A stretch of DNA of 64,000 nt, from the NCBI GenBank assembly GCA_037783545.1, contig JBBELK010000631.1, positions 1 through 64,000 of the forward strand, written 5' to 3'. The stretch comes from Henricia sp. BOLD:AAB3569 (Eukaryota > Echinodermata > Asteroidea > Spinulosida > Echinasteridae). The position numbers were made by a program, and so were the translations under genes. Of this stretch, positions 16,115 to 64,000 are shown piece by piece. Numbering within the stretch: position 1 is the stretch's first letter; every line of letters begins with the position of its first letter. The notes beneath the pieces were generated by a model that was not told where the DNA came from, did no database searches, and saw only the letters and a program-made list of their open reading frames with translations.

Positions 16115-16702
16115 TGGGGTACCGTGGCCGAATGGTTTGGGTAACTGACTTGCAACACTCGGGTGAAAACTTGCCTGGGGTTACGGGTTTGATACCCGGC
16201 TGTGGTACCTGTGCCCTTGAGCAAGGCACTTAAACACCCTTGCTCCATCCTTTGGAAGGGATGTAAAGCCGTTGGTCAATTGTTTTGTGTAATGCACTTA
16301 AAAGATCCCAGAGCACTCTTTCATGAAGAGTAAGGGGATTCCCCATTGTCTCTTGCCGCCAGCTGCCAATGGCGCCACCCACCTATGTATATCGATGTTT
16401 AGGTGGAACCTCACCCCCCGGCTGTGGTACCTGTGCCCTTGAGCAAGGCACTCAACCACACTTGCTCCATCCTGTGGAAGGGATGTAAACCCGTTGGTCC
16501 AGTGTGTTAGGTAACAGTAACAAACTTTAAAAATCCCAGAACATTCTTTCGTGAAGAGCAAGGGGTTTCCCTGGTGTCTCTGGCCATTTCTAAATTCTAA
16601 TTCTTCATGGGTTTCCTCTCGCTTACGAGTGACAGTGCAATGGGCACTTTAGAGGAATCCCTGGTATGAATACCAGAATGAAATAATAATAATAATAATA
16701 AC
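16115..16702 (+). mobile_element. tRNA-derived SINE with duplicated body
   Basis: Same family as 11799-12140: head GGGTACCGTGGCCGAATGG, B-box-like GGGTTTGATACCCGG, tail (AAT)n at about 16683-16700. The body from GGCTGTGGTACCTGTGCCC is present twice (from about 16198 and again from about 16420), so the copy is internally duplicated or two SINEs are joined. Confidence 0.85.
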
Positions 16703-29500: not shown

Positions 29501-32500
29501 CAAGTCTCGACAGGCCTCGCTGAATTGGCTCATGAGTCGCTGTGAGCCTTCAGCTGAGTGGGTGGTGACTGCTCCGTCGTCAGCTAAGAGGAAGTCCCGC
29601 AGGCACTTCAGCTGGACTTTGGACTTGGCTCTTAGTCTGGAGAGGTTGAAGAGCTTCCCGTCAGATCTGGTTCAGAGGTAAATGCCCTCTGTGGCAGATC
29701 CAAAGGCATGCTTCAGCAGCACGGCATCTATAAATCTGTTTAAATTTGATTCTTCAGTTTACCATGTCAACTTGAACTTTTTGTCAAGAATTGGTTTATC
29801 TTGAGCAAAGCTGAAACTAAACCTAAATAAAACAAGTCACACACTTTTTGTCTTTCAGATACCTACGGATCTAACGATGTGGAGAAGGCCCTCATCGACA
29901 TGGCATATGATGGCGTGGAGGACTTCTACCAGCGATATATCCACATGGTCTATGGTAACTTTGTAAGTGAACTGTTTGAGTGGATTGTAATTTGTAGGAA
30001 GTTGAAACCAATATTGGCCATTTATGTTTGTCATTGAAATAATTGGACAGTTGAAGACATTTTAAAAAGCTCCAAAACTGATATTAGGCATGAAAAGAAA
30101 ATCAAAACACAGAATATGATGATGCACAAGTATTCCGTCAAAATGTTCTATTCTGCCCTTGTTTGACAAGGTTACACTTCATAGTTTGTGGGCCACATTT
30201 TTATCCTGAAATTCATGACCAGTCTCAAAGCAGTTGTTACTTCCATCAAATGTCAGCCTTTCCACTCTGGCAAGGCAAACTTTGTCCGATGCGGATCTTG
30301 TTTATGTAGGGTGTCTACTGGCAGCTCAAGTTACAGACCAATTATGTAACTTGGGACTCTGTACTGCATTCGTCAACGTACTGTTTGGGTCATTCAGTGC
30401 ACAAACTGTACGTTGCTAAACTTGCTAAAAATGCACCAACTTGTTTGCAGTAAGATTAGTTCAGCTAAACAGTCAGTCCTGCAGTTCGTGCACTGGATGG
30501 CTCTTGCTAATGGTGGATAACAAGTACAAAGGAGTCTCAAGATCAGATGGCTCTTTCTTACCATCACAAACCAAGAAAACTGTTTCCTTCTCTTTGAAAA
30601 ATTGAGTTTCAATAGCGGACTGTATTTCTACCCCGATGAATGCATTGGATGTTGGGTTACCGTTAACGCATTGTCTTGATTGCAAATCTAAAACACACTT
30701 GAACTTGATGTACATGTAATTTCATTTCTTTGTAATGTTTAATATAATGTTTCAATCTGTTCAAGGATGCCGATAAAGACGACTATGTGGCAGACACTCT
30801 TCCCAATGTCACACTTCCAACAATGCAGGTACATTCATTTGTTCTCCTAGTACGGGCTGTTTCATAAAAAGTGTATCTATCCTTGAAAATAAATTCCAAA
30901 AATTGTACTGAATATTTCAGAAATGGAACAAATTCAAGGAAAAACCATTGAATTGTCATTATCAGTGATGGTTAAAAATCACAACTTGGACAAGCATTTC
31001 TATGGTAATACACACACAAATTTGTAAGCCAGATATTCTTCTTCACCCAGTTTTTGGTCAAAATGGCATCACTGCAATTGTCATTCTTTGTGACGTTCGT
31101 ATTCGCTTTTTAGTAGGTAACATTCCTTGTCCTTTGTAGACCAATAGAGCACTGAAGTGAATATGTCATCCGCCTTTGTGTGTTACCAAGGTTCCTGGGT
31201 CTACACTAAATTGACTAAAACCAGTAAACTGTTTCCCTGCACTTTACCAATGGACGTTTCCAGTGAATGTTTAGACCCGATTAGCATGGCAACTGACGTC
31301 ACACTTTAGTAGTCTATAATGCACGAGCTGCACTTGTATATAACAAAGTTTTGTTTTTGGGTACAATTCTCCTTTTTTGCACACGGCTTATTTTTATTTT
31401 GCCTGAGCTGTGACTTTTTGTGAGTCCCATTGGGGGAAGGTCAAACTATTCTCGGTTGTTTTTTTATGTTCTGTGTGAGGGGCCCTCCAAAGTTGTCGGC
31501 ATTTTCACGGTTTTACGGAGCGTAGTATTTTTCAAGACTCCCCCAGTGTTTTCCCAGAAGCTCCAGCTGCCGGCGATTTCACCGGCTACTCTGTCATTTG
31601 CTGCCGGCTACTTTTTTGATTTTACGAAAGTAATCTTGTATATTCCCTGATTAGTATCATAATTACTTTCAAATCTCTTGTGTACACTATCGACAACTCA
31701 TATTTGTTCACCCGTTACTCCAAAATCTCTGGACAACACTGCTCCCCTCCCTTCCCTGAAATACTACTTATCAACTTTTTTTGTCAGTGCCATGAAATGT
31801 CAAAATTTTACAGTGCCTGTAAAGTCCTACGCGGCCCTCAACGCCCTTCCTCTGTTCTGTAGACCCGTGAAAATGTTGACAACTTTGGACGGCCCCTAAT
31901 CGTATTTCTTCTGTTTTCCCCAGAAACTGCTTCAGCGAAATAAGAAAGTTGATGGATTTCTCGTAGGAGACAAGGTATGTTGAAACATTAACTCTAAGGC
32001 TTAGAAGATATATTTTATATTACCTGTCATTTACCAGTGTAGCTGCGACCCTGCAGTACCGTACTACGGAACTCCTTTTTGTGATTTGATCAACGAAATC
32101 AGTCGGAACTCGGCAATCCTTGGTTTGAGATATGGGCCAAAAAATGTTCTTAAAATATCAATGCATAGTTCCGAGATTGCCCAGTTAACCCCGCCCCTTA
32201 GATATTGTTGCTATGTGCTCACAAGCCATCGAAAAAAAATAGTGACACAACGTACAAAGCAACGGGACTCGGCATGGAAAGCACAGATTCATTGGAGAAA
32301 ACTCAAAGGTATTTATGTTTTAGGGTCGACAGTTACCCTCGCACATACTGAGCGAAGGGCTAGTAATGCTGGGATGACGTATATTTCATAAAAAATGCAC
32401 TTTCCTACCTTTGAACAGCGAATCGCCAGACATTTGAAACCAAAATTCACCCGGTCACTGGCGCATACAACATACAAACTGTATGGGCAGAAAATCGCGT

Positions 32501-45500: not shown

Positions 45501-46680
45501 GTATGTGAGAGGCGTGTAAGTGAGGAGTCTGGAGCCCATCGTACCACTGTTTCATCATTACAACATGCACCACACGTGCATGAGGCAGCATGAGGAATCA
45601 GGATTCCATCCTCAATCAGGCAATTCAAGGTGCGTCCGCCGTATCGAATGCTCCTCTTCCAATCTTTGCTGTTGCCTCGTCCGCAGTAGCTTTCAAACTC
45701 GGATGGAGTGTACCAGTTGTCTTGGTATTTAATGCACCGCCCTTTTCCTCCTGGGGAAAAAAAATAATAAATTGTTTGAGTGTAACATTAAAAAATAGCT
45801 TTTTTTATCAAATTGTTCTTTTCGGCATAATTCCATTCACTGATCCGTGATCGCCACGGAGATGCCGTTTGCATATTCTATGGAACATGGAAGAGAAAGT
45901 TTACATATTTTGAAAGAGCCTGTTGAATGTTTGTCACTCTTAAATATTAACACTTTTTGGCGTTTACCGAGTCATATTAAGGAAAATTAGTGGCAACTTG
46001 CAAGGCAACCAGTAAACGGAATTATTTACAATCTTTCTTTTAGTCAATACATTAGTCAATACATTTGTTCATTGTATTCTTTTGATTACATTTTTGATAC
46101 GCTAAATTATGTTTAAATTCTCAAGAACTTTCCAAAAGCAGACATAGAATCTCACAAAGTGGCAGTTTTTATCTGCAGAATTCTTACCAGATCCAAGTTT
46201 GGATTTATGCAACTCGGCACTGACATTTTTGCAGCGTATTGGCAGAACGCCGTTGGGCGAATGCAGCAGCTCATCCCAGCTGTAATGCTGCCGTTTATCG
46301 CCGGACGGAGTCCCGGGAGTGCATGGAGTCGCCGGTGATTTCAACCCGTCTACCAAGTGAGCGTGCGAGTCTTGCTGAACGATGGCCACCAAGCGCGTTG
46401 TCCGTCCACCTTCACCGGGCACCGTCGTCAAAATACCCACCGGATGCACGGGATGAGGATGGAAAACCTCGTCAGCTACGGAAGAAGCACCGATTTCTTC
46501 GTCTTGTCCGTCAGCGCTGTTTTCGTTGGAGTTGTCCGTTCCTGATCCTGATCCTGCGTTGAAGGCCGAGTCATCGGCTGAATTCGGCAACTCCTCGGAG
46601 ACGGTGTGAATGTCGATATTTCCTGCTTCGGCAATTCCGACGGGGACTTCAGTCACTTCGCATGCTTCCGCTTTTTCCAT
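41394..46680 (-). CDS. DEAF1: DEAF1 transcription factor
   Basis: Seven coding exons on the minus strand: 46680-46188, 45750-45545, 44714-44594, 43854-43700, 43081-42950, 42459-42301, 41597-41394; 1470 nt, 489 aa. Junctions are GT-AG and in phase (the exon 2 donor could instead be at 45548). DEAF1 is a nuclear DNA-binding transcription regulator. Seen: acidic/Ser-rich N-terminus, conserved [19 protein letters not shown] leading into a SAND domain (about 155-235) with the DNA-binding KDWK at 193-196, nuclear signal KRRKR at 249-253, Ser/Thr/Pro region, helix [13 protein letters not shown] (about 335-347), an Ala/Glu-rich helical exon 370-422, and a C-terminal MYND zinc finger with C424, C427, C435, C438, C444, C448, H456 and C460. 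Human DEAF1 is 565 aa with a longer N-terminus. The start is the first good ATG (MEKAEACE); an upstream in-frame reading without ATG exists. Confidence 0.95.
42526..42662. mobile_element. MITE with an expanded poly-G end
   Basis: GGCAGCCATGACGGGGG at the left and its inverse CCCCCTGTCATGGCCGCC at the right. At the left the G run (42537-42564) has grown to 28 bases. In DEAF1 intron 5. Confidence 0.8.
42537..42564 (+). repeat. Poly-G run of 28
   Basis: Uninterrupted G on the plus strand (C on the DEAF1 sense strand). Length may be polymorphic or imprecise in the assembly. Confidence 0.9.
43118..43266. repeat. Interspersed repeat Z, copy 2
   Basis: Matches 23090-23255 (GGGCATTTTGGCAACAC to GTGACAACATGCC). 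In DEAF1 intron 4. Confidence 0.75.
43478..43687. mobile_element. MITE with CCAAAGTTGTC ends (copy 2)
   Basis: GTCCAAAGTTGTCAACATTTTC at the left and its inverse at the right; shorter relative of 31479-31897. Ends 13 bp beyond the DEAF1 exon 4 donor. Confidence 0.82.
44027..44180. mobile_element. MITE with ACCATGCACAGACACC ends (copy 2)
   Basis: Ends ACCATGCACAGACACC and GTGTCTGTGCATGGT; related to 5825-6325 with the middle missing. In DEAF1 intron 3. Confidence 0.8.
45452..45503 (+). repeat. G-rich minisatellite beside a DEAF1 splice donor
   Basis: Repeats of GGGAGGGGGAAGGGGGT about 40 bp downstream (in the sense of DEAF1) of the exon 2 donor; the pre-mRNA is C-rich here. Confidence 0.85.
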
Positions 46681-47199
46681 GTTTGCCAGCAACCTTCTAC
46701 TTTGCCTCCTTTTCAAGCAAGGGAAATTGTCAATGAGTCTCTCAGCCTCAATTAACAATGCAAAAAAGTAAAATTAAATGGTACAAATAAAGTGTAATAT
46801 TGCAGCTTAAAAATCGGTGAAACTCGACACAGTTTCGTCAAAATGGCCGAATGTGCATCACCAATCTAAAGCTGGCCGCATTTCGGGCCCGATTTTCCCA
46901 GCCTCACTTTTCAGCCTCATTTTTTCCTCAGCATCGATTTTCAGCCTCAGTTTTGCACAGTCGACTTTCTACAAGAAAACATGCACTGCAGGATGGCGAA
47001 AAAGTGAACAAGAATTGCCAGGAAACTGTTTATTTGCAGAACGAATTTTCGTTAATCGAACACAAATTACGAACATTTTTAATTTACATCTAAAATAGAG
47101 ATAACAATGTTTGCATTGGTACGATGGACTTCATTAATAATGTTTACATTAATTTAATACGCTTACATTTTTCACTAAGTATGCATGAAATAGTGTAAT
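46681..47199. other. DEAF1 upstream region
   Basis: About 520 bp between the DEAF1 ATG and the first repeat unit of the tandem array. Contains five imperfect TTTTCAGCCTCA units at 46895-46953. The DEAF1 promoter and 5' UTR must lie here or within the array; no TATA box identified. Confidence 0.55.
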
Positions 47200-50100
47200 A
47201 TTGTTTTGTTTTTTTAAAACAAAAGCCACTTTCAGAGAAGGTGTACCTAACACGTGCGTAAAATATTACATTTTTAGTACATAAAAACGAAGAACACATC
47301 GGTACGCACACTTAATTTTTTTATGCCGGCTTCAGCCCGTCACTAATTGATGCCTAATTAGGGCATTAAAGGTCACTATCATCACGTCTCGAATACGTCC
47401 ATTTATAGCGCAATGGGTCTCTTTCTAGAAAAGTGTACCTCACATGTTGTTGATATTGTGCATTTGTATTACGCAAACATGGAGAACACATCGGTGGGCA
47501 CACTTAATTTTTGTGCCGGCTTCAGCCCGTCACTAATTGATGCTTAATTAGGGCCTTAAATGTTCACCATCATCATGTCTAGAATACGTACATTTATAGC
47601 GCAATGGGTCTCTTTCTAAAAAGGTGTACCTCACATGTTGTCGTTATTGTTCATTTTTATGACGCAAACAAGGAGAACACATCGTTGGGCACACTTAATT
47701 TTTGTGCCGGCTTCAGCCCGTCACTAATTGATGCCTAATTAGGGCATTAAAGGTTCACCATCATCACGTCTCGAACAGGTCCATTTATAGCGCAATGGGT
47801 CTCTTTCTAGAAAAGTGTACCTCACATGTTGTTGATATTGTGCATTTTTATTACGCAATCACGGAGAACACATCGGTGGGCACACTTTATTTTTGTGCCG
47901 GCTTCAGCCCGTCACTAATTGATGATTAATTAGGGCCTTAAAGGTTCACCATCATCACGTCTAGAATACGTACATTTATAGCGCAATGGGTCTCTTTCTA
48001 GAAAAGTGTACCTCACATGTTGTTGATATTGTGCATTTTTATGACCCAAACATGGAGAACACATCGGTGGGCACACTTAATTTTTGTGCCGGCTTCAGCC
48101 CGTCACTAATTGATGCTTAATTAGGGCCTTAAATGTTCACCATCATCACGTCTAGAATACGTACATTCATAGCGCAATGGGTCTCTTTCTAAAAAGGTGT
48201 ACCTCACATGTTGTCGTTATTGTTCATTTTTATTACGCAAACAAGGAGAACACATCGGTGGGCACACTTAATTTTTGTGCCGGCTTCAGCCCGTCACTAA
48301 TTGATGCCTAATTAGGGCATTAAAGGTTCACCATCATCACGTCTCGAACAGGTCCATTTATAGCGCAATGGGTCTCTTTCTAGAAAAGTGTACCTCACAT
48401 GTTGTTGATATTGTGCATTTTTATGACCCAAACATGGAGAACACATCGGTGAGCACACTTAATTTTTGTGCCGGCTTCAGCCCGTCACTAATTGATGCTT
48501 AATTAGGGCCTTAAAGGTTCACCATCATCACGTCTAGATTACGTACATTCATAGCGCAATGGGTCTCTTTCTAAAAAGGTGTACCTCACATGTTGTCGTT
48601 ATTGTTCATTTTTATTACGCAAACAAGGAGAACACATCGGTGGGCACACTTAATTTTTGTGCCGGCTTCAGCCCGTCACTAATTGATGCTTAATTAGGGC
48701 CTTAAAGGTTCACCATCATCACGTCTAGATTACGTACATTCATAGCGCAATGGGTCTCTTTCTAAAAAGGTGTACCTCACATGTTGTCGTTGGTGTTCAT
48801 TTTTATGACCCAAACATGGAGAACACATCGGTGGGCACACTTAATTTTTGTGCCGGCTTCAGCCCGTCACTAATTGATGCCTAATTAGGGCATTAAAGGT
48901 TCACCATAATCACGTTTCGAATACGCACATTTATAGCGCAATAGGTCTCTTTCTAAAAATGTGTACCTCACATGTTGTCGTTTTTGTTCATTTTTATTAC
49001 GCAAACAAGGAGAACACATCGGTGGGCACACTTAATTTTTGTGCCGGCTTCAGCCCGTCACTAATTGATGCCTAATTAGGGCATTAAAGGTTCACCATAA
49101 TCACGTGTGGAATAGGTACATTTATAGCGCAATGGGTCTCTTTCTAGAAAAGTGTACCTCACATGTTGTTGATATTGTGCATTTTTATGACCCAAACATG
49201 GAGAACACATCGGTGGGCACACTTAATTTTGGTGCCGGCTTCAGCCCGTCACTAATTGATGCTTAATTAGGGCCTTAAATGTTCACCATCATCACGTCTA
49301 GAATACGTACATTCATAGCGCAATGGGTCTCTTTCTAAAAAGGTGTACCTCACATGTTGTCGTTATTGTTCATTTTTATTACGCAAACAAGGAGAACACA
49401 TCGGTGGGCACACTTAATTTTTGTGCCGGCTTCAGCCCGTCACTAATTGATGCCTAATTAGGGCATTAAAGGTTCACCATCATCACGTCTCGAACAGGTC
49501 CATTTATAGCGCAATGGGTCTCTTTCTAGAAAAGTGTACCTCACATGTTGTTGATATTGTGCATTTTTATTACGCAAACACGGAGAACACATCGGTGGGC
49601 ACACTTTATTTTTGTGCCGGCTTCAGCCCGTCACTAATTGATGCTTAATTAGGGCCTTAAATGTTCACCATCATCACGTCTAGAATACGTACATTTATAG
49701 CGCAATGGGTCTCTTTCTAAAAAGGTGTACCTCACATGTTGTCGTTATTGTTCATTTTTATTACGCAAACAAGGAGAACACATCGGTGGGCACACTTAAT
49801 TTTTGTGCCGGCTTCAGCCCGTCACTAATTGATGCCTAATTAGGGCATTAAAGGTTCACCATCATCACGTCTAGAATACGTACATTTATAGCGCAATGGG
49901 TCTCTTTCTAGAAAAGTGTACCTCACATGTTGTTGATATTGTGCATTTTTATGACCCAAACATGGAGAACACATCGGTGGGCACACTTAATTTTTGTGCC
50001 GGCTTCAGCCCGTCACTAATTGATGCTTAATTAGGGCCTTAAAGGTTCACCATCATCACGTCTAGAATACGTACATTCATAGCGCAATGGTCTCTTTCTA

Positions 50101-51370
50101 AAAAGGTGTACCTCACATGTTGTCGTTGGTGTTCATTTTTATTACGCAAACATGGGGAACACATCGGTGGGCACACTTAATATTTGTGCCGGCTTCAGCC
50201 CGTCACTAATTGATGCTTAATTAGGGCCTTAAAGGTTCACCATCATCACGTCTCGAATACGTACATTTATAGCGCAATGGGTCTCTTTCTAAAAAGGTGT
50301 ACCTCACATGTTGTCGTTATTGTTCATTTTTATTACGCAAACAAGGAGAACACATCGGTGGGCACACTTAATTTTTGTGCCGGCTTCAGCCCGTCACTAA
50401 TTGATGCCTAATTAGGGCATTAAAGGTTCACCATCATCACGTCTAGAATACGTACATTTATAGCGCAATGGGTCTCTTTCTAGAAAAGTGTACCTCACAT
50501 GTTGTTGATATTGTGCATTTTTATGACCCAAACATGGAGAACACATCGGTGGGCACACTTAATTTTTGTGCCGGCTTCAGCCCGTCACTAATTGATGCTT
50601 AATTAGGGCCTTAAAGGTTCACCATCATCACGTCTAGATTACGTACATTCATAGCGCAATGGTCTCTTTCTAAAAAGGTGTACCTCACATGTTGTCGTTG
50701 GTGTTCATTTTTATTACGCAAACATGGGGAACACATCGGTGGGCACACTTAATATTTGTGCCGGCTTCAGCCCGTCACTAATTGATGCTTAATTAGGGCC
50801 TTAAAGGTTCACCATCATCACGTCTCGAATACGTACATTTATAGCGCAATGGGTCTCTTTCTATAAAAAGGTGTACCTCACATGTTGTCGTTATTGTTCA
50901 TTTTTATTACGCAAACAAGGAGAACACATCGGTGGGCACACTTAATTTTTGTGCCGGCTTCAGCCCGTCAGTAATTGATGCCTAATTAGGGCATTAAATG
51001 TTCACCATCATCACGTCTCGAACAGGTCCATTTATAGCGCAATGGGTCTCTTTCTAGAAAAGTGTACCTCACATGTTGTCGTTATTGTGCATTTTTATGA
51101 CCCAAACATGGAGAACACATCGGTGGGCACACTTAATTTTTGTGCCGGCTTCAGCCCGTCACTAATTGATGCCTAGTTAGGGCATTAAAGGTTCACCATC
51201 ATCACGTACATTTACAGCGCAATGGGTCTCTTTCTATAAAAGTGTACCTCACATGTTGTTGATATTGTTCATTTTTATTACGCAAACAAGGAGAACACAT
51301 CGGTGGGCACACTTAATTTTTGTGCCGGCTTCAGCCCGTCACTAATTGATGCCTAATTAGGGCATTAAAG
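47200..51370 (+). repeat. Left arm: tandem array, about 22 x 190 bp
   Basis: Core GCCGGCTTCAGCCCGTCACT recurs at 47329, 47519, 47710, 47901 and so on to 51326, spacing 190-191 bp. The first unit (about 47200-47340) is diverged; a decayed unit trails to about 51640. Two subtypes alternate: one with TTGTTGATATTGTGC and CTAGAAAAGTG, one with TTGTCGTTATTGTTC and CTAAAAAGGTG. No ORF persists across units. Confidence 0.95.
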
Positions 51371-52586
51371 GTGTCCATCTGTACTTTCCGTTAAAAGTGT
51401 AATTGCTTTGTGCGTTGTGTGTCGCCATTTTGGCGATATCGTGTGAGCCATACCAACAATATCCAAGGGGGCAATGCTAATTAGGTAAACTCGGAACTAT
51501 GCATTGATGCCTAATTAGAGCATTTAAAGTACACCATCATCGAGCAATTAAGTGTAATGAGAAAACGTTCATTTATAGCGGGCAAGTTGTATGTGCAGGG
51601 AGACCGAGATGTGCTTTAAATCGCCATTTTTATGACGATAGGCCTATACTACTAGTATCGAAGAGGCACATATATAGGGAGCGGACGGTTGAGCACAATA
51701 AAGTTATGAGTCAAGGAGACGGAACGTTAAAATGTGAATACAATATGTTTCTTATCAGAATATCCGGCAATAAAAGGAAAAAATTCTTCGCGGATGTCCT
51801 ACAAATCATCTGTTTTTTATTGTTTTCCTTTAGATTATAACCGATAGCTTATTTAATACACGTAGTAAGCTATCTATTCCAATATGATTTGTTTCTCCAA
51901 AATCCGCGTTCAATCTGAACGAAAGAAAAATCCTTTTTTTTCCATTAAGAACCTGAATATTCCACCATACCCACTCAAAATATATAAAAATTCTGATATG
52001 AAGTAATATAACAATTATGGTGATACATTGTATGGATTTTTTTTCAATGGATTTTCCATAACATCGAAAACATTTACAAAAAACAAACAAACAAACAATA
52101 TAGTCAGTTCCGAATTTGCAAAAATCATAATAATTTAAAAAAAACACAAGTCAACAATATAAATGCAACTTTTTAGGTTTTTCGGTCAGTGTTTATTAAA
52201 AACCAAGACAGGCATGAAGCAAAGATTTCCGAACATAAATACAAGCTACATGTACATATAATAAGGAATGTCGAAAAAGACACACTCCATTACCAGAACA
52301 GCGCAACGTGCTCTATTACTATTACATGTACCACAATAGTGGACCATTACTCCGTTTCTGCTCAGTTTTTAAATCTCATCTGTTAGTGTTATGTCTATAT
52401 GCACGCTCGAGATTATGTGCCGTCGTCGGATTGAATGTTACTCTGTAATGGTTTTATATACTGAAAATCACAGATCAGAAAGCTCAGAGTTTTGTATAAA
52501 AAGCAGTTAATGTCCTATACTTTATGGAGTAGCTGCCAAAGGGCAGTTCCTTTGTTCCGTGACGACACAGAGTTGCACATTTTGTG

Positions 52587-52958
52587 CTCGTCTACACTGG
52601 CAAACATTTCACATAAAACATGACCAAACATAAAGTAAAGTTTACAAATGTGGACGGCACATAAAACATAAGCGCAGCAAACACAATACAAGCAAACTTT
52701 ACCAAACTGTGTTTGCCGGTTTTTGGAAATGCACCTACTGTAAAACACTTCATTTGCTCATGTTTTATTTCTGAACCTATCAGGAACCAGTTTCAGGTCA
52801 TGTGATTAGAGCCAGTTAATCATAATCACATGATTGTTCCAGAAGTTTGCTTCTGTTTGCCAATGTACGCACATATAACAACATCAGCAAGCGCAAACAA
52901 GCTTGTTTGGTGATGTTTGCAAACATAATGTTTGAAAGTGTTTGCCAGTGTAGACGAG
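52587..52958. mobile_element. MITE with CTCGTCTACACTGGCAAAC ends
   Basis: About 372 bp; ends CTCGTCTACACTGGCAAAC and GTTTGCCAGTGTAGACGAG, with AAACAT-rich inner arms. Nested in the giant element. Confidence 0.9.
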
Positions 52959-53587
52959 GTACATTTTAACAAAAACCCATTGAAATATCTAAAGTTGCTA
53001 ACAAGATATTCGATATAGCTATTCGATATAGGCATGTAGGCCTACGGTCTATTGTTCTGCAAGAGCGTTTGATAATGGATCCGAGGCGGAAACAAAACAT
53101 TTTTCCGTTCAATAATGAATTTGTACTTAGTCATATTATGTAATGATTCGTATTGAAATGTGGACATCATCTGGGTCATGGAAGACAATGTTATTTGTTT
53201 TGTTTTGTTCGAATTTAAATAGGCCGAATGGCAAATGATAAACTTACAAAGCCTGTGTGGCATGGGTTCATGCATATTTGGGGTAATCCACAATGGGGAT
53301 GTTTTGTGAATTCGACGTGGTTGGCGCTCCCCTACCCCATACATATCGTTTATCGAAAATCAAAAGGTCTTCGGTGTTAAATAAAGTGCATCTCAATAAT
53401 TTGAAATGCGAGACATATTTTACATAGGAATGTAAAAGTTGTAAACCTGTATATAATGAGCTGCGCTTCAGACAGGAAATACATGTACTTCAATCCCATC
53501 CATTTTCGCGCAGATAGGCGTTAGTTACGTGATCTCGCTTGCGGGCTAATAACACTATATAAGCATGTTTGAAATCATCCTCTTAAA

Positions 53588-54443
53588 ACAGTGCCCATTT
53601 AACGCAATTCCCGATCGTGTGTATCGAAGCCCTGTTGAAACCGGCCCCATTTCGCTGGGGAACAAGCGAAAGAAGTATGCCGGACCAACTTATACGCTTG
53701 GTAGTGCATTGCAGATGCGCGCAGATTGTAAACAACGCCCATGCATGTGATACATGTACACGAGGGGCGTGCGAAATGCTGACACCGGGTAACACACGTT
53801 GCACCGGACCGTTCTTTTAGCCATCACGTGCTGCACGAGTCTGCCCCGGTGGCAGCCACCACTGCCCGAGCTCGCGGGCGGATCTGTGGTGTAAAGCAAG
53901 GTGTAATGACGTCACCTAGTAACCATGGTAACCATTTCGAGTAGTAAAACATGGCGGACAGTTTGGAATCGTGACGTGAGTACGAAGAAAAACACATATT
54001 TACGACACAAAATAGGAGGGGCTGTAAATACATTTTGCTGAATCAGTACCCGGTAGATGTCTGTAGCTGTGTTTGGCATTGACAAACTATTTTTGCGTGG
54101 CGCCGGCTTCAATTTTCATCCTGAGTCAAATGATAACGGCGTTTATAAGGCCCCACCCGGCAACAACCTTTGACCACGTGTTCCCAGAATTTCAAGCGAG
54201 ACCCTGTGTCGTTCGTTTTGCATCTTCTGGGGGCTCCCCCGGTGTAAAACCCCTGTTACCCGGTGTAAGCGTCTCGAACGCCCTATAAGGGTGGCCGTTG
54301 TCCGCGTCGGCGATTTGGTTGCTATTTAAAGCATACTGGAGAATCCGTTCCATTACATTCGTTAGCATGCATCCCTACTATTAATTTTTAAAAAAATCGG
54401 AGTAAATTAAGATCCTCGCCGGAAATTCTGGTACGAATGGGAC
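53588..54443 (+). repeat. Repeat X, copy 3, split by a nested element
   Basis: 53588-53760 matches the first third of repeat X (CAGTGCCCATTTAACGCA to GATACATGTAC) and 54288-54443 the next part (TGGCCGTTGTCCGCGTCG to GTACGAATGGGA). In copy 2 (10448-11045) these parts are adjacent, so 53761-54287 is an insertion. Confidence 0.82.
53762..54285. mobile_element. Non-autonomous DNA element inserted in repeat X
   Basis: About 524 bp with roughly 32-bp imperfect terminal inverted repeats: ACACCGGGTAACA near the left end and TGTTACCCGGTGT near the right, outer ends GGGGCGT and ACGCCCT-like. No transposase seen. Confidence 0.78.
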
Positions 54444-54498
54444 CAGAGGCGGATCCAGGGGGAGCGTGGGGGCGCACGCATCCCCACCTCCCTTTAAA

Positions 54499-54530
<32 letters not shown>

Positions 54531-54671
54531 ATTCTTAAGAACTGTTCCGGCGTGATCACATCTTGTTCCCAAATAGAGTCAATTTCGCAAAATGTCGGCG
54601 AAAAAGCAATGTCCCTGCGCAAACACCAAATTATGATGTACCTGAGTTATCAAGCTCGCTACCTCTTCAAA

Positions 54672-57600
54672 CTATTGCTGATAGGAACGGAAAAGTCTCA
54701 GAAGTTCAGGATCTATAATCCTGGATCTTTTTACGAGTTGTGTAGCAATGTACAATCTCAATTTGTCTGCGCTATCACACGGTTTGATCTCCTTCTTTGG
54801 GAAGCAAATCTGTTCTGCAAATAAGCAACAGAAAACTCCACAGCTTGCTGAATCCTCTTGCTGCGCACACTTTTCTTGAACAATTGGAAGTTTTTCCCAG
54901 TTTTCAAATACTGGAGGCATACGGCTCCAATATCTGTTAGTCGTGCCATTTCGGAAGAATTCGTAAAATATGTTCCCGTAGCGCATCATTTTTTGCCTGT
55001 TGTCACGCTTGCAGCTGAAAGAATCGAAACAGGAAATATGTTTCTGAACATTATCAAAAACATACAGCTCGAAATGTCTATTTTGAAGAAGTGGAAATAA
55101 CATCACATCAAAAAAATTACTACCGTCTGATACTTTTTTGGTTACGGCGCGAAATGTATGTGGAGTAAACTCCTCATTGAGAATCTTTCTTGTTTCGTTG
55201 CAGTCCATGGTCCCAATTAATCTATGTTCATTTCCTTTGGTGGATTCGTTACACACTTGACTTATATAAAAATCAACAACAACATCGCTTAACCAACCAG
55301 GCTGATAATTTTCGTAGACATTTTTCAATCTTTTGCACACTGATGGTTTGGGATTAGCGTCAATTGTGGCAAGATCGTGAAACGAAAGAAAATGCTTGGT
55401 ATTTTCATCTCGTAGTGACACAGAATGCATGTTCTTTCCATCGAGTGACTGCCACACCAGACGAACGAATTTTTCATCTGCCTCATTTACCACAAAGCAA
55501 CTGTCATTTTGATTTTCATTCAGATCTACTGCTGACTTTGAATAAAAAAACAAGTACCCAGCTTCTGTAACGTCTTTGGTGAAACGATGAACGGTGACAT
55601 CATTGACTACGTGGTCATCAAACTCCACAAACGACGTACCAGAAGCGTTTCGCACAAATGTACGGTAATGCCCACTTTGCAATGACTTTCCGTCGTGGAC
55701 GACGACTGTCCTTAGTTCGTAAACTGCTGGCGTTTTGTTTAAGCAAAACCGAGACAAGTCTAATATCATAGATGGGGATACATTCGCAGTTATCTTTTCT
55801 CGCCTGCCATCAACAATGCGGAAACGTAATAGTTGAAGCACCAGTAACGCCGGACAATTGACAATTCGAGAAACGATCATTTTCTTAACTCCCTTTTGTT
55901 TGCATCCGTCACAGTCTACGCCTGCTACTATCTCGTCTTCTAAAAACGTGTACAGACAGTTCACAAGATTGTTCTTTTGCGCTGGCACAGGTAAAGTACA
56001 CGATGTGGTATTCTCCACTTCCTTGCATGCCGTACAATCAATGCACATAACTGACTTGCTTATTTCTATCTCATTAGTCAGATATGACTCCCTTAAGAAG
56101 GGCACAACAATTTGTGTGTAAAATTCGGTAGCGTCCTGTTGCTCATTACATCTGAAATTTACTTGTGCGGCGCATTCTTCAATGATAGCCTTTACGGAGT
56201 GGAATGACACTGGCTGTTTAATGTCTGCCGATAGCATGTGGAAAAGTTCAATTAACTTCCGCCAAATAAAGAACTCGCTGCCTTGGAATTTTTCAAGTGA
56301 AAGATTGGCTGCGCGAATAAACGGCTTCACTGCTTGGATTGTAGCTATCCACCAGCAGGAAACGCTATTATTCGAAATCCCTCTGGGCCTGTTGGAATTT
56401 TTGTCACCGGTAGTTGTCAGGGTTTCTTTTTTCTTGGTATCGTTTATGCCTTTTTTCCGGTGTGGTGAAATTTGTGTGTCTTCGGCAACATCTGACTCAG
56501 AACTGATATGTTTTTGTTTCTTCTGACGTTTATTTGTTACTGTATCTTTGAATTGTAGTGCTGTAGAAGGTGGCGTTAGATACACGCCTTTTCGATTAGG
56601 GGTACTTGAACGGACACGTTTAGACCATTTCTCTTTCGATAGTTTTAACGATCTTGGGTGGATTGTCCTACGTGATGTGCAAAACGCCTCACAAAATTCT
56701 CTTTGCAAAGGCAACATGTCCCTTTCATAAATTAAAACGAAATCACTGACTTTGCTACATCGCGTGGAATTCAACTTTGCACGTTTAACCTCCTGCATAC
56801 TTTTTTCGATTACCCCCTGAGTACGATTGTCTGAGGTTATGTTCTGGAATGTAGAACTTTTTATCTTATTGTACTTTGTTGAAAATGATTCGTATGCATT
56901 AGATGTTCCATGCCTGCCTATATCGTGAAGTAGCAGTCCGGACCAAAGTGGAATATTCGGCAAAATGAAATCTAGTAGATGATTAATGAAATCTATTCCA
57001 TAATATGGATTTTTGTTCATTGTTACTGGTTTATTTGGGTCGTTTTCTTTTGTTAGCAGATTGATGGTATGCTCAGCTGTTCTCTTAAAATGAGCCCGAA
57101 ACGGGGAATTTGGCGATTTTTTTACGTAATCGTCCTCAGATATATTGAACTGACAGAAATCATTGTCGTTCAACATTGATTGGGTTTCTGGCAGCAACAC
57201 GTCATTTTCTTCATCCCCATATTTGCCTATTAAGCTTTCCTCATCGTTCTGCTCAATTTTAGATTTTAAGTTGTGATAATTTGCTTTGACATTAATGGAC
57301 ATGAATTTGCTGTGAGTTAAGACTACTATAGATTGGACTGTATCGTTGATATCTTCAAAATCGGTAGACTGGAGAAGAAGCCCGATCCAGTACATGGCGT
57401 CCCTAAAGTTATTTTTGTAATACTTTCTGCATATCTTTGAAGCATTTTTCATGAAATGGCTCGCACATGTATGGATCAAGGTCTTCTTCAAATCTTCTGT
57501 TTTGGCAACCCCAGTCACGATTCTGTAGCAACGACTGAAGTACTCTTGGACAGTTTCACAGTTAAAGGCTTTTAAAACTGCTAGGAGTAGTGTTGGACTT

Positions 57601-58727
57601 CCATCGATCATTACCATTATGGGAGGGGTGACACCGTGGTGGCCATAAAGACTCTGCTCGGAATGAAGGAAGCATTGTAAGAAATAACTAACGAGGACGG
57701 CGTTATGATCTACAGTCAATAGTGATGCAAGAACGAAAGGGGGAGAACCTTTTATGGGATGTCTGATAACTAAGTCGTACAATTGGTACTTTTTTGAACC
57801 AGAAAACTGTGAGTTGTTACATATTATGGACCCGGTAGCGTCTAAATAAATTATATCCCTTGACGAAATGTGATGATACACCTTAACTGAATCTTGCGAA
57901 TATAATATAACGTACGCAGGAGAGAGACTCACCTGCCGCAATATTCCTGGAATTCTTTTATTTGCGTCTGACTGTCGCCTAACAATATTTAGAAGTGTGC
58001 TTAATTCGCTTTCCTGTGACAATTTATGCCCTTCGCATGAGATTGTATGTAGTACCTCCTTTCTTGGTGCCTCGTCACGACAACCTGACATAAATACTTC
58101 ATCGTTTATTTTTTTCAGGTTATCCAAATGTTCTCTTCTTGTTTTTTTATATTTTAGCACTTTTCGGAGGGCTTCTCTTTGTGTATTTCGTACAAATCGT
58201 GCTCGCCGTTCACTTTTCTTGTGTTTTACCTTCCCTGTAAAGGAAACACGCGCCTTCAACTCACTTTCGTTTTTGATAAGTATTTGAAATTTCACAGTGC
58301 AATCGCTGAAATTGCAGTACCCAGACGAACGGAAAGCTGTTCGTGACCGACCTCGCGATTTACTCGAAACGTAATGTCGTCTAAACTGAAAGGAGCAGTA
58401 AGGATGTAATTGTTTTAGACCCTTCACGAACACGTGAATCCAGCGTTTGGGAAACGAAGTACCATTTTGTTGTTTCTTAAGTGACATCCATTCAGATTTA
58501 TCTATGAAAAAGTAACATCTTTTTTTCGGGGGTAACTGCACTGTCCAGCAGGTTTTGCTTTGGGTTACTTCACCATCTTTTTCAGTGCACATGTCATCCC
58601 TAACACTGCGAGGCAAAATGTCGTCAGTACCTTCGTTGGAATTATCAGCCTTAGAACTGTTATTTTCGACCTGGTTTTTGACTACATCACGGTTTAACTG
58701 CGCGTGTTCACATGGGTTCTCAATCAC
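54672..58727 (-). CDS. Mutator/NOF-like transposase fused to USP and Ulp1-type protease domains
   Basis: One uninterrupted reading frame, 1351 codons if read from GTG at 58727; first ATG is codon 46 (58592), and the frame is open upstream to about 58853, so a spliced 5' exon is possible. Domains (numbering from 58727): Cys/His DNA-binding-like segment 130-180 (YCNFSDC, then KVKHKK); RNase H-fold DDE transposase about 280-630 with D296 (YLDATGS), D375 (MIDGSP), C421/H424 (CASHFMKN) and E613 (TSNAYESF), the Mutator-superfamily pattern; basic linker 690-770 (likely nuclear signal); C19 ubiquitin-specific protease 780-1065 with C791 (NNSVSCWW), QQDA 863-866, zinc ligands C895, C898, C939, C942, H1020 (SGHY), D1037/D1038; C48 Ulp1-like domain about 1140-1320 with H1218 (RHFELYVFD), D1235, Q1290 and C1296 (SCGVFCC). 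H-to-D spacing of 17 and Q-to-C of 6 match yeast Ulp1. It would cut and move the element and perhaps strip ubiquitin or SUMO from nuclear proteins; that role is inferred. Confidence 0.9.
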   Translation of the reverse strand: MIENPCEHAQLNRDVVKNQVENNSSKADNSNEGTDDILPRSVRDDMCTEKDGEVTQSKTCWTVQLPPKKRCYFFIDKSEWMSLKKQQNGTSFPKRWIHVFVKGLKQLHPYCSFQFRRHYVSSKSRGRSRTAFRSSGYCNFSDCTVKFQILIKNESELKARVSFTGKVKHKKSERRARFVRNTQREALRKVLKYKKTRREHLDNLKKINDEVFMSGCRDEAPRKEVLHTISCEGHKLSQESELSTLLNIVRRQSDANKRIPGILRQVSLSPAYVILYSQDSVKVYHHISSRDIIYLDATGSIICNNSQFSGSKKYQLYDLVIRHPIKGSPPFVLASLLTVDHNAVLVSYFLQCFLHSEQSLYGHHGVTPPIMVMIDGSPTLLLAVLKAFNCETVQEYFSRCYRIVTGVAKTEDLKKTLIHTCASHFMKNASKICRKYYKNNFRDAMYWIGLLLQSTDFEDINDTVQSIVVLTHSKFMSINVKANYHNLKSKIEQNDEESLIGKYGDEENDVLLPETQSMLNDNDFCQFNISEDDYVKKSPNSPFRAHFKRTAEHTINLLTKENDPNKPVTMNKNPYYGIDFINHLLDFILPNIPLWSGLLLHDIGRHGTSNAYESFSTKYNKIKSSTFQNITSDNRTQGVIEKSMQEVKRAKLNSTRCSKVSDFVLIYERDMLPLQREFCEAFCTSRRTIHPRSLKLSKEKWSKRVRSSTPNRKGVYLTPPSTALQFKDTVTNKRQKKQKHISSESDVAEDTQISPHRKKGINDTKKKETLTTTGDKNSNRPRGISNNSVSCWWIATIQAVKPFIRAANLSLEKFQGSEFFIWRKLIELFHMLSADIKQPVSFHSVKAIIEECAAQVNFRCNEQQDATEFYTQIVVPFLRESYLTNEIEISKSVMCIDCTACKEVENTTSCTLPVPAQKNNLVNCLYTFLEDEIVAGVDCDGCKQKGVKKMIVSRIVNCPALLVLQLLRFRIVDGRREKITANVSPSMILDLSRFCLNKTPAVYELRTVVVHDGKSLQSGHYRTFVRNASGTSFVEFDDHVVNDVTVHRFTKDVTEAGYLFFYSKSAVDLNENQNDSCFVVNEADEKFVRLVWQSLDGKNMHSVSLRDENTKHFLSFHDLATIDANPKPSVCKRLKNVYENYQPGWLSDVVVDFYISQVCNESTKGNEHRLIGTMDCNETRKILNEEFTPHTFRAVTKKVSDGSNFFDVMLFPLLQNRHFELYVFDNVQKHISCFDSFSCKRDNRQKMMRYGNIFYEFFRNGTTNRYWSRMPPVFENWEKLPIVQEKCAQQEDSASCGVFCCLFAEQICFPKKEIKPCDSADKLRLYIATQLVKRSRIIDPELLRLFRSYQQ

Positions 58728-58853
58728 ACCGGACGAAATAGGGATTTCAGGAAGGCGGGAAGAGGAGGTCGCGCTACAGTCGTAGTTTGGTTGTACATTT
58801 GTTCCGAATTGGTCACTTGAAATTGAATTGTTCTCAGATGCGGTAGGTAGGTG

Positions 58854-60074
58854 TCAGCAATTTTTTGACCTGGCCGAAACCCCAGAGGTTTGTGTCTGTG
58901 ACAACCCAGTTGTTCCAGTTTTACTTGCACTTTATGTTATAGGGAAACTTGTTACAATCCGTATGGCATGGCAACATCATAGACTAAACATTACCTTTAA
59001 AAAATGACCATGGGCATCAAATAGAATGTTTATTAATGTTTTTAAAAATTATTATTCTGATCTGTTCTTCTACCAGGGAGAGCTATCATTGACATAAACT
59101 TGCGGTCTTCCATGGAGCCATGGGAAATAGGCCTATACAATTAAAATAAATGAAACATAATTAACATCTCAAATATAGGCCCTACTACTAGGAAAATAAA
59201 ATGTACACTAAACATGATAAAATGACGGAACGTGAACAGAGAGATTAAAACATTAACACACAGGGGGGAAATTTCTCGTATTCGAAATTATCGATAACTT
59301 TCGCAATCGTTGGGGCATCTGCATCATATGACATCACACTTTTACCTGCAGCTGAGATTGCAAAATTGTCCGGGGCACTTAAAGTTACACTGTAATTATT
59401 ATATTTCTATAGCGCACATTCCATATGGGCATGTTCACATGCGCTGTACATTGTTATGAGTTTACAGAAGCTTACAAGTATTATCCACCTAAACATCGAG
59501 TTACATAGGGGATTCACCTTTCACTCTTCAAGAAAGAGTGCCTCTGGTAATTTTGAAGTGCGTTATTTAACACACTGAACCAACGGCTTTACATCTCTTC
59601 CGAAGGATGGAGCAATTGTCGTAAGATACCTTACTCAAGGGCACAGATACCACGGTCAGGTATCGATCCCGAAACCCCAAGTTTTTACTCGGGTATTGCG
59701 AGTCGACAAAATATTTTAGCTTAGCGCATAGCTGAAACCAGAATAAAACGTCGACATTTCCAAGTATAAGCACATGGCAGATCTCCGCAAAAAAACCCCG
59801 ACAACCCGAGGAATTTTTCCACCCGACACCCGAGTACCTACTTCACCACTCAATCATCGCAATCACAAGTACACAAAAGAGACGCCCTTAACATAAACCA
59901 TCTTGACGTAACGCTCCCCGACCCCGGAAAGTTAGATATGCCCATGAGATGAAGCTCATAGCTCGTACAATCAATCACTTGTAGGGTATACATTATACAG
60001 ACATACTTTTAGACATACTTTTACAGACATACTCTTGCGGACAATAAATATTCTCTAATGCAAATTCAATTTTC
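58854..60074. other. Inner right part of the giant element, 5' of the transposase ORF
   Basis: No coding exon recognised, though a short 5' exon and the promoter of the minus-strand ORF are expected here. Contains a reverse SINE fragment (59560-59705). Confidence 0.55.
59560..59705 (-). mobile_element. tRNA-derived SINE fragment
   Basis: Minus strand: CTCGCAATACCCGAGTAAAAACTTGG-like head, GATACC with B-box remains (GGGATCGATACC), CCTTGAGTAAGG, and ATCCTTCGGAAG body, matching 11799-12140. 3' tail unclear. Confidence 0.78.
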
Positions 60075-63000
60075 TACAAAGGGACCAATGCGCTGGAAAT
60101 GGACGTAATCCAGACGTAATAATGGAGAACCTTTCAGGCCCTAATTAGGCATCAATTAGTGACGGGCTGAAGCCGGCACAAAAATTAAGTGTGCCCACCG
60201 ATGTGTTCCCCATGTTTGCGTAATAAAAATGCACAATATCAACAACATGTGAGGTACACTTTTATAGAAAGAGACCCATTGCGCTATAAATGGACGTATT
60301 CGAGACGTGATGATGATGACCTTTAATGCCCTAATTAGGCATCAATTAGTGACGGGCTGAAGCCGGCACAAAAATTAAGTGTGCCCACCGATGTGTTCTC
60401 CTTGTTTGCGTAATAAAAATGAACAATAACGACAACATGTGAGGTAAACCTTTTTAGAAAGATACCTATTGCGCTATAAATGTACGTATTCTAGACGTGA
60501 TGATGGTGAACATTTAAGGCCCTAATAAAGCATCAATTAGTGACGGGCTGAAGCCGGCACAAAAATTAAGTGTGCCCACCGATGTGTTCTCCGTGTTTGC
60601 GTAATAAAAATGCACAATATCAACAACATGTGAGGTACACTTTTCTAGAAAGAGACCCATTGCGCTATAAATGGACCTGTTCGAGACGTGATGATGGTGA
60701 ACCTTTAATGCCCTAATTAGGCATCAATTAGTGACGGGCTGAAGCCGGCACAAAAAATAAGTGTGCCCACCGATGTGTTCTCCATGTTTGGGTAATAAAA
60801 ATGCACAATATCAACAACATGTGAGGTACACTTTTATAGAAAGACACCCATTGCGCTATAAATGGACGTATTCGAGACGTGATGATGATGACCTTTAATG
60901 CCCTAATTAAGCATCAATTAGTGACGGGCTGAAGCCGGCACAAAAATTAAGTGTGCCCACCGATGTGTTCTCCATGTTTGCGTAATAAAAATGCACAATA
61001 TCAACAACATGTGAGGTACACTTTTATAGAAAGAGACCATTGCGCTATAAATGTACGTAATGGAGACGTGATGATGGTGAATCTTTAAGGCCCTACTTAG
61101 GCATCAATTAGTGCCGGGCTGAAGCCGGCACAAAAATTAAGTGTGCCCACCGATGTGTTCTCCTTGTTTGCGTAATAAAAATGAACAATAACGACAACAT
61201 GTGAGGTACACCTTTTTAGAAACAGACCTATTGCGCTATAAATGTACGTAATCTAGACGTGATGATGGTACCTTTAAGGCCCTAATTAAGCATCAATTAG
61301 TGACGGGCTGAAGCCGGCACAAAAATAAGTGTGCCCACCGATGTGTTCTCCATGTTTGGGTAATAAAAATGCACAATATCAACAACATGTGAGGTACACT
61401 TTTATAGAAAGACACCCATTGCGCTATAAATGGACGTATTCGAGACGTGATGATGATGACCTTTAATGCCCTAATTAGGCATCAATTAGTGACGGGCTGA
61501 AGCCGGCACAAAAAATAAGTGTGCCCACCGATGTGTTCTCCATGTTTGGGTAATAAAAATGCACAATATCAACAACATGTGAGGTACACTTTTATAGAAA
61601 GACACCCATTGCGCTATAAATGGACGTATTCGAGACGTGATGATGATGACCTTTAATGCCCTAATTAAGCATCAATTAGTGACGGGCTGAAGCAGGCACA
61701 AAAATTAAGTGTGCCCACCGATGTGTTCTCCATGTTTGCGTAATAAAAATGCACAATATCAACAACATGTGAGGTACACTTTTATAGAAAGAGACCTATT
61801 GCGCTATAAATGTACGTATTCTAGACGTGATGATGGTGACCTTTAAGGCCCTAATTAAGCATCAATTAGTGACGGGCTGAAGCCGGCACAAAAATTAAGT
61901 GTGCTCACCGATGTGTTCTCCATGTTTGGGTAATAAAAATGCACAATATCAACAACATGTGAGGTACACTTTTATAGAAAGACACCCATTGCGCTATAAA
62001 TGGACGTATTCGAGACGTGATGATGATGACCTTTAATGCCCTAATTAAGCATCAATTAGTGACGGGCTGAAGCCGGCACAAAAATTAAGTGTGCCCACCG
62101 ATGTGTTCTCCATGTTTGCGTAATAAAAATGCACAATATCAACAACATGTGAGGTACACTTTTATAGAAAGAGACCTATTGCGCTAGAAATGGACCTGTT
62201 CGAGACGTGATGATGGTGAACCTTTAATGCCCTAATTAGGCATCAATTAGTGACGGGCTGAAGCCGGCACAAAAATTAAGTGTGCCCACCGATGTGTTCT
62301 CCATGTTTGGGTCATAAAAATGCACAATATCAACAACATGTGAGGTACACTTTTCTAGAAAGAGACCCATTGCGCTATAAATGTACGTATTCTAGACGTG
62401 ATGATGGTGAACCTTTAAGGCCCTAATTAATCATCAATTAGTGACGGGCTGAAGCCGGCACAAAAATAAAGTGTGCCCACCGATGTGTTCTCCGTGATTG
62501 CGTAATAAAAATGCACAATATCAACAACATGTGAGGTACACTTTTATAGAAAGACACCCATTGCGCTATAAATGGACGTAATCGAGACGTGATGATGATG
62601 ACCTTTAATGCCCTAATTAAGCATCAATTAGTGACGGGCTGAAGCAGGCACAAAAATTAAGTGTGCCCACCGATGTGTTCTCCATGTTTGCGTAATAAAA
62701 ATGCACAATATCAACAACATGTGAGGTACACTTTTATAGAAAGAGACCTATTGCGCTATAAATGTACGTATTCTAGACGTGATGATGGTGACCTTTAAGG
62801 CCCTAATTAAGCATCAATTAGTGACGGGCTGAAGCCGGCACAAAAATTAAGTGTGCTCACCGATGTGTTCTCCATGTTTGGGTAATAAAAATGCACAATA
62901 TCAACAACATGTGAGGTACACTTTTATAGAAAGACACCCATTGCGCTATAAATGGACGTATTCGAGACGTGATGATGATGACCTTTAATGCCCTAATTAA

Positions 63001-64000
63001 GCATCAATTAGTGACGGGCTGAAGCCGGCACAAAAATTAAGTGTGCCCACCGATGTGTTCTCCATGTTTGCGTAATAAAAATGCACAATATCAACAACAT
63101 GTGAGGTACACTTTTATAGAAAGAGACCTATTGCGCTAGAAATGGACCTGTTCGAGACGTGATGATGGTGAACCTTTAATGCCCTAATTAGGCATCAATT
63201 AGTGACGGGCTGAAGCCGGCACAAAAATTAAGTGTGCCCACCGATGTGTTCTCCATGTTTGGGTCATAAAAATGCACAATATCAACAACATGTGAGGTAC
63301 ACTTTTCTAGAAAGAGACCCATTGCGCTATAAATGTACGTAATCTAGACGTGATGATGGTGAACCTTTAAGGCCCTAATTAAGCATCAATTAGTGACGGG
63401 CTGAACACAAAAATAAAGTGTGCCCACCGATGTGTTCTCCGTGATTGCGTAATAAAAATGCACAATATCAACAACATGTGAGGTACACTTTTCTAGAAAG
63501 AGACCATTGCGCTATAAATGTACGTAATGGAGACGTGATGATGGTGAATCTTTAAGGCCCGAATTAGGCATCAATTAGTGACGGGCTGAAGCCGGCACAA
63601 AAATTAAGTGTGCCCACCGATGTGTTCTCCTTGTTTGCGTAATAAAAATGAACAATAACGACAACATGTGAGGTACACCTTTTTAGAAACAGACCTATTG
63701 CGCTATAAATGTACGTATTCTAGACGTGATGATGGTACCTTTAAGGCCCTAATTAAGCATCAATTAGTGACGGGCTGAAGCCGGCACAAAAAATAAGTGT
63801 GCCCACCGATGTGTTCTCCATGTTTGGGTAATAAAAATGCACAATATCAACAACATGTGAGGTACACTTTTATAGAAAGACACCCATTGCGCTGTAAATG
63901 TACGTGATGATGGTGAATCTTTCAGGCCCTAATTAAGCATCAATTAGTGACGGGCTGAAGCCGGCACAAAAATTAAGTGTGCCCACCGATGTGTTCTCCA
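60075..64000 (-). repeat. Right arm: inverted tandem array, about 21 x 190 bp, runs off the window
   Basis: Reverse complement of the left-arm unit; AGTGACGGGCTGAAGCCGGC recurs every ~190 bp from 60158 to 63946. Shares the left arm's two subtypes and some private variants. Contains a ~950-bp (5-unit) internal duplication: AGCAGGCAC at 61692 and 62643, GCGCTAGAAATGGACC at 62181 and 63132. Confidence 0.95.

Follow-up and report, generated by a model that had tools for sequence, protein, structure and literature searches.

A stretch of 64,000 nucleotides from Henricia sp. BOLD:AAB3569 (Asteroidea; contig JBBELK010000631.1, positions 1 to 64,000; in the following called the window) contains a long open reading frame (ORF) between two inverted satellite arrays. 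The best explanation for this arrangement, to which we assign a probability of roughly 0.62, is that of a single DNA transposon of the foldback type, at least 16.8 kb in size and probably autonomous, whose one long ORF would encode a probable DDE transposase followed by a USP-type deubiquitinase and a Ulp1-type SUMO protease. In outline, arms and ORF together resemble a giant foldback-type element that extends over at least 16.8 kb, from position 47225 to beyond 64000 (Table 1). The element is known from one copy and from its sequence alone.

Table 1. Parts of the putative transposon and their positions in the window (residues refer to the frame counted from its GTG codon)
Feature	Position	Strand	Basis and details
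Left satellite arm, 190/191-bp tandem units	47225..51372	+	Tandem Repeats Finder (TRF), 21.5 copies; 21 anchor-to-anchor units
Degenerate satellite remnant just inside left arm	51497..51580	+	nhmmer E=1.8e-9
Interior downstream of ORF	51581..54671	-	Two interspersed repeat pieces, 53576-53762 and 54286-54443
ORF of 1351 codons, probable transposase + USP + Ulp1	54672..58727	-	GTG start; first in-frame ATG 58592
Ulp1/SENP C48 domain, residues 1141-1313	54789..55307	-	Pfam and SENP1 alignment; WLSD box, H1218, D1235, Q1290, C1296
USP/C19 deubiquitinase domain, residues 783-1062	55542..56381	-	Pfam UCH; Cys box C791, QQD box, CxxC 895 and 939, H1020, D1037
Probable DDE transposase core, residues 292-620	56868..57854	-	Motif only: D296 (YLDATGS), D375 (MIDGS), C421-x2-H424 (CASH), E613 (SNAYESF)
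Basic N-terminal region, residues 60-180; possible zinc-finger DNA-binding (tentative)	58188..58550	-	Motif only: C138-x4-C143, H169
Interior upstream of ORF	58728..60065	-	Interspersed repeat copy 59508-59704
Right satellite arm, left-arm unit inverted	60066..64000, continues past window	-	TRF, 20.8 copies to window end; 20 anchor-to-anchor units

Two isopeptidase domains in one open reading frame

Counted from a GTG codon, the ORF is a single open frame of 1351 codons without any internal stop, and the window contains no N. Upstream of the GTG the frame stays open for another 42 codons until a TGA at 58854-58856. With 1393 codons from stop to stop it is the longest frame of the window, the runner-up having 400, and the chance of 1351 open codons was estimated at approximately 7e-38 (independent bases, window composition). 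In a eukaryote, GTG is an unlikely start codon. Residue 46 is the first encoded by an in-frame ATG; a protein that begins at this position would have 1306 aa and keep all domains, the alternative being an additional exon upstream.

The USP domain is supported by homology. The Pfam UCH profile matches residues 783-1062 with E=1.1e-25, over positions 2-254 of its 254, and chains of the PDB (USP2, USP8, USP36, and others) match over approximately residues 889-1063 (phmmer; best E=9.5e-12 with the segment 777-1064). The GHY and FDD boxes, which hold the His and the Asp, are in register with USP8 in the PDB alignment; for the Cys box, only the Pfam match applies, the PDB alignments beginning near residue 889. 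Inside the domain lie two CxxC pairs (at 895 and 939), presumably at the position of the zinc ribbon of USPs. With C791, H1020, and D1037 in place, the domain looks catalytically complete.

For the Ulp1-type domain, the match to Pfam Peptidase_C48 has an E value of 2.5e-5 when the full ORF product is scanned and of 7.7e-7 (29.6 bits, cut-off 20.7) for the segment 1066-1351, where the match spans residues 1183-1313 and thereby positions 60-188 of the 217 in the profile. SENP1 from the PDB aligns over residues 1142-1308 (E=4.3e-4), with WLSD opposite WLND and with H1218, D1235, and the Q-x5-C box (Q1290 and C1296) all aligned. The C48 domain likewise looks catalytically complete; by likeness it would be of the SUMO type, although the match leaves the substrate (SUMO, NEDD8, or ubiquitin) unfixed. 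A sub-threshold Pfam match to Peptidase_C5, found beside C48 in the ORF, probably reflects the kinship of C48 and adenain. When AlphaFold2 was run without an alignment, residues 1080-1351 reached a mean confidence score (pLDDT) of 36.1 despite the Pfam-supported C48 domain. The mean pLDDT of 34.7 for residues 225-690 has no bearing on the transposase fold, since the supported C48 region also failed.

The original prediction, made from the letters of the DNA, had described an uninterrupted frame of about 1351 codons in which a C19 set (C791, H1020, D1037) with zinc ribbon cysteines and a C48 set (H1218, D1235, Q1290, C1296) follow a transposase triad (D296, D375, E613). The frame was borne out from 54672 to 58727, the strand being the minus strand, and all ten residues were found in place. 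Both sets belong to profile-supported domains (Pfam UCH for the C19 set; Peptidase_C48 together with the SENP1 alignment for the C48 set), the two CxxC pairs are candidates for the zinc ribbon cysteines, and the occurrence of USP and Ulp1 in one frame is upheld by profile matches and PDB alignments with most of the catalytic residues in register.

It could be argued that separate genes have been joined in this frame or that it is an artefact of the assembly, as the lack of an early ATG hints at a start or an exon further upstream that went unrecognised. We consider this very improbable: one open frame without N or stop runs through all three parts, and chance would not place two homology-supported domains in such a frame. 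Another alternative is that the element has merely captured the protease domains, which then would play no part in transposition, or that they are inactive. Captured pieces of host genes can ride in transposons, as described for plants (PMC13317346; here and below, cited statements refer to the available passages of the papers). Both domains nevertheless retain full catalytic sets in frame with the rest of the protein, and the recurrence of Ulp1, OTU (ovarian-tumour), and VTD domains across transposon kinds suggests a shared benefit, so that passengers appear to be a rather unlikely explanation.

Inverted satellite arms around the ORF

The ORF sits between two arrays of one unit of approximately 190 bp in opposite orientation, the left one being 4148 bp and the right one at least 3935 bp long. 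The mean pairwise identity of the units is 0.935 within the left arm, 0.928 within the right arm, and 0.923 between the arms, and one unit is identical across the arms (unit L04 on the left and R09 on the right). The profile of the unit matched 46 times in the window, every match being in the arms or at their edges. Four stretches, 10-24 bp in length, recur unchanged in no fewer than 40 of the 41 units and constitute candidate binding sites. It was also observed that the innermost left unit (51140-51320) and the outermost visible right unit (63789-63969) are both 180 bp long and are each other's best match (0.944).

These inverted arms, which were absent from the first reading of the sequence, are the best evidence for a mobile element: because they flank the ORF, a mobile element is much likelier than it would be from the ORF alone. 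One could instead suppose that a host gene or a domesticated transposase lies between satellite blocks by chance, and that arrays and ORF do not move together. The position of the right end outside the window, the presence of other repeats inside, and the single copy in the window would all be compatible with such an arrangement, but the arms are inverted, are of similar visible size, and have one identical unit in common, and the rest of the window is free of such units, as expected for the two ends of one element. A chance arrangement is therefore unlikely.

The probable transposase and the points against the element

In the N-terminal half, the order of D296, D375, C421-x2-H424, and E613 recalls what we take to be the core of Mutator-like elements (MULEs), and D296 and D375 are spaced by 78 residues. 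The region preceding this core is basic, with K or R at 19 of the 50 positions in residues 151-200; no Pfam family exceeded its own cut-off in residues 60-180. In the arthropod MULE families surveyed in the literature, the D-D distance is 60-76 residues (84 in Ghost) and the D-E distance 120-214 residues, alignment gaps being counted (PMC13359780).

Several results weigh against the proposed transposon or against its transposase part. Residues 225-690 match no Pfam transposase family when E<=10 is asked, although the filters of HMMER can hide weak matches, and they match no PDB chain (E<=10). The D375-E613 spacing is 237 residues compared with a largest value of 214 in the surveyed arthropod MULEs, whose counts include alignment gaps. 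No relative was found in collections of virus, plasmid, and prokaryote DNA, which says little on animal transposons. The right outer end lies beyond position 64000 and any target-site duplication is therefore outside of the window, within which no second copy of the ORF occurs. No in-frame ATG precedes residue 46, and neither AATAAA nor ATTAAA is present in the 1.67 kb located 3' of the stop codon. Lastly, other interspersed repeats are found inside the element (51377-51508, 53576-53762, 54286-54443, and 59508-59704). Because these repeats lie within it, the copy need not be recent: either it stood long enough for other elements to insert, or it carries them along.

The original prediction had called the triad with its CASH motif Mutator-like. 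The residues themselves (D, D, CxxH, and E) are present, whereas the Mutator-like character found no backing in Pfam, in the PDB, or in the D-E distance of 237. In the same way, the proposed Pfam search of the translated ORF recovered UCH and Peptidase_C48 but neither a MULE nor another transposase profile. The transposase part may hence belong to another DDE superfamily (hAT, P, KDZ-like, or an undescribed one), the element otherwise being as proposed, which we regard as possible but doubtful. Both the missing MULE profile match and the long D-E distance would fit such an origin, and CxxH-type motifs are found in several DDE superfamilies. Galileo, moreover, has foldback-like arms and is part of the P superfamily (PMC4079207, PMC3688188). 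On the other hand, the D-D distance of 78 is taken to fall within the range of arthropod MULEs (60-76, or 84 in Ghost), other transposase families are likewise without a Pfam match, and most foldback elements seem to be relatives of Mutator (PMC4079207). Because it is motif and context, without a profile or PDB match, that point to this fold, the N-terminal half of the ORF is referred to as a probable DDE transposase that is MULE-like and not as an assigned MULE; a Mutator assignment would draw on motif and architecture only.

Proposed mechanism

If the foldback-type transposon is functional as depicted, the basic N-terminal region would bind to the conserved boxes in the satellite repeat units, many transposase copies would assemble on each arm, and the DDE core would cut the outer ends of the element. 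The fused USP and Ulp1 domains may remove ubiquitin and SUMO from the transposase first of all, or from proteins bound nearby. Removal of these tags would be expected to result in slower proteasomal clearance of the transposase-DNA complex and in weaker SUMO-dependent silencing, and the transposase, or its chromatin, may in this way be shielded from SUMO and ubiquitin. SUMO-targeted ubiquitin ligases make mixed SUMO-ubiquitin chains, and we would guess that the clearing of such chains is the task that requires both isopeptidases in one protein.

Taken one step further, the transposase would be equipped to erase mixed SUMO-ubiquitin chains by itself in two steps. The SUMO-targeted ubiquitin ligases of the host could then neither extract it from the DNA nor silence the element, while the arms, by loading many copies of the enzyme, would deplete SUMO and ubiquitin in their vicinity. 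This extension is speculative and, on balance, unlikely. The mechanism proposed above may be seen in the light of published work according to which SUMO favours silent chromatin in yeast, plants, and animals (PMC8131101), deubiquitinases of Helitrons were suggested to block the degradation of proteins needed for transposition (PMC9741609), and the ubiquitin and SUMO pathways were proposed to participate in transposition (PMC2836005).

The literature examined offers no settled answer as to why transposons of different kinds repeatedly carry proteases for ubiquitin and SUMO. With USP and Ulp1 on one probable transposase, this question becomes testable in one construct. The putative foldback-type element, whose ORF is long and intact and whose satellite arms are very large, is furthermore useful for studying the origin of such arms and a possible binding of the transposase to each repeat.

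Other repeats, neighbouring genes, and rejected matches

Just inside the left arm, between two satellite pieces, lies a repeat of 130 bp (51377-51508) that is 74% identical to 32157-32288, located 19 kb off. A short interspersed repeat, by impression similar to short interspersed nuclear elements, is present in four copies (11831-12013, 16147-16344, 16424-16558, and 59508-59704), the last of which is inside the element and upstream of the ORF. A second interspersed repeat family covers 9751-11041 and has two pieces, 53576-53762 and 54286-54443, downstream of the ORF in the element. Two short ORFs of the interior (51830-52147 and 53042-53344) gave no Pfam matches.

Outside the left arm, an ORF on the minus strand (46102-46758) shows a weak match to the SAND domain (E=0.0035, below the Pfam cut-off) and may be the initial coding exon of a DEAF1-like gene. 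Between its candidate start codon near 46680 and the outer boundary of the arm there would be approximately 0.55 kb, and its strand is the same as that of the element's ORF. Two ORFs encoding MFS transporters (Pfam MFS_1; 362-1471 on the minus strand and 4650-5846 on the plus strand) form an inverted pair with 75% identity over approximately 1 kb. The ORF at 28994-29533 (minus strand) resembles, by impression, the end of the reverse transcriptase of a retrotransposon without long terminal repeats (non-LTR), and has no Pfam match.

Scans of viral contigs with the whole ORF, with residues 210-638, with a two-motif pattern, and with residues 777-1064 delivered no relative; the stretches that matched by pattern (three in one scan and one in another) encoded none either. 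Three further stretches matched in a scan of genome contigs, none of which is a relative, and tblastn of residues 225-690 gave no match in phages and plasmids. Below the Pfam cut-offs, three matches were judged to be due to chance: Methyltransf_29 (E=0.016), the sole Pfam match listed for residues 225-690; Ofd1_CTDD (E=0.012 with the whole ORF and 0.0009 with residues 1-224); and RiPP_SkfA. No match was obtained with Rfam at gathering scores over the whole window. A scan for bacterial promoters and terminators upstream of the ORF, which has no meaning in a eukaryote, returned values near the shuffled means.

Comparison with known systems

Element-encoded domains resembling SUMO proteases or deubiquitinases are known from several kinds of transposons. 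Among MULEs, Ulp1 occurs in Mutator elements of hydra, lancelet, and plants (PMC2836005), the latter including KIU/VANDAL elements (PMC13317346), and an OTU domain is present in MuDR-6_HM (PMC6446971). Some of the plant MULEs that carry Ulp1 but have no terminal inverted repeats (TIRs) reduce DNA methylation at elements of the same kind, although what Ulp1 contributes there is not known (PMC13317346). In contrast to these MULEs, the Henricia element has two isopeptidases after one probable transposase in one frame, satellite arms of approximately 4 kb, and no match to a MULE profile. In Arabidopsis KIU, for example, the Ulp1 domain is encoded by a separate gene (PMC13317346), whereas here it shares the frame of the probable transposase. 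MULEs generate target-site duplications of 8-11 bp (PMC6446971, Table 1).

Outside of the MULEs, Ginger1 transposases carry a C-terminal Ulp1 or OTU domain, but their transposase resembles the integrase of Gypsy, their TIRs measure 44-270 bp, and one protease type is listed per family (PMC2836005, table). C48 peptidases have also been described in Cryptons (PMC3212892). A transposase with a USP/C19 domain is exemplified by the Trichomonas vaginalis protein XP_001314237.1, which combines Transposase_11 with Peptidase C19; Transposase_11 is, however, another family, and no Ulp1 is mentioned for this protein in the available part of the source (PMC2836005). Two types of deubiquitinases per transposon are found in Helitrons, where 121 VTD-containing elements also possess OTU (PMC9741609), yet these are rolling-circle elements with RepHel and not with a DDE transposase, and they pair VTD with OTU instead of USP with Ulp1.

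With regard to the architecture, Tetris, Tm1, and Galileo likewise have long inverted arms of tandem repeats, with units of approximately 220 bp in Tetris (PMC4079207, PMC3169594, PMC3688188). Here, each arm is approximately 4 kb long and comprises about twenty units, and two isopeptidases are part of the protein. Rehavkus, a relative of the MULEs, combines long TIRs with a minisatellite, but its minisatellite precedes the 3' TIR and does not form two inverted arms (PMC6446971). Rehavkus also has a PHD finger, whereas no PHD family appeared in the Pfam scan of our whole ORF (E<=1 asked).

The original prediction had presumed that the combination of both isopeptidases behind one transposase was not previously described. 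Among the matches listed for the open-licence literature, a search that had Repbase outside its scope, the exact pairing of USP and Ulp1 behind one transposase was not found, and the available parts of PMC8277862 and PMC6431247 contain nothing closer to it. Within this scope that part of the claim stands, but its novelty is narrowed by the close kinds already in print, namely Ulp1 or OTU domains in MULEs, a C19 domain on a transposase, and pairs of deubiquitinase types in Helitrons. What appears to be new in the Henricia element is the presence of USP and Ulp1 together behind one probable transposase.

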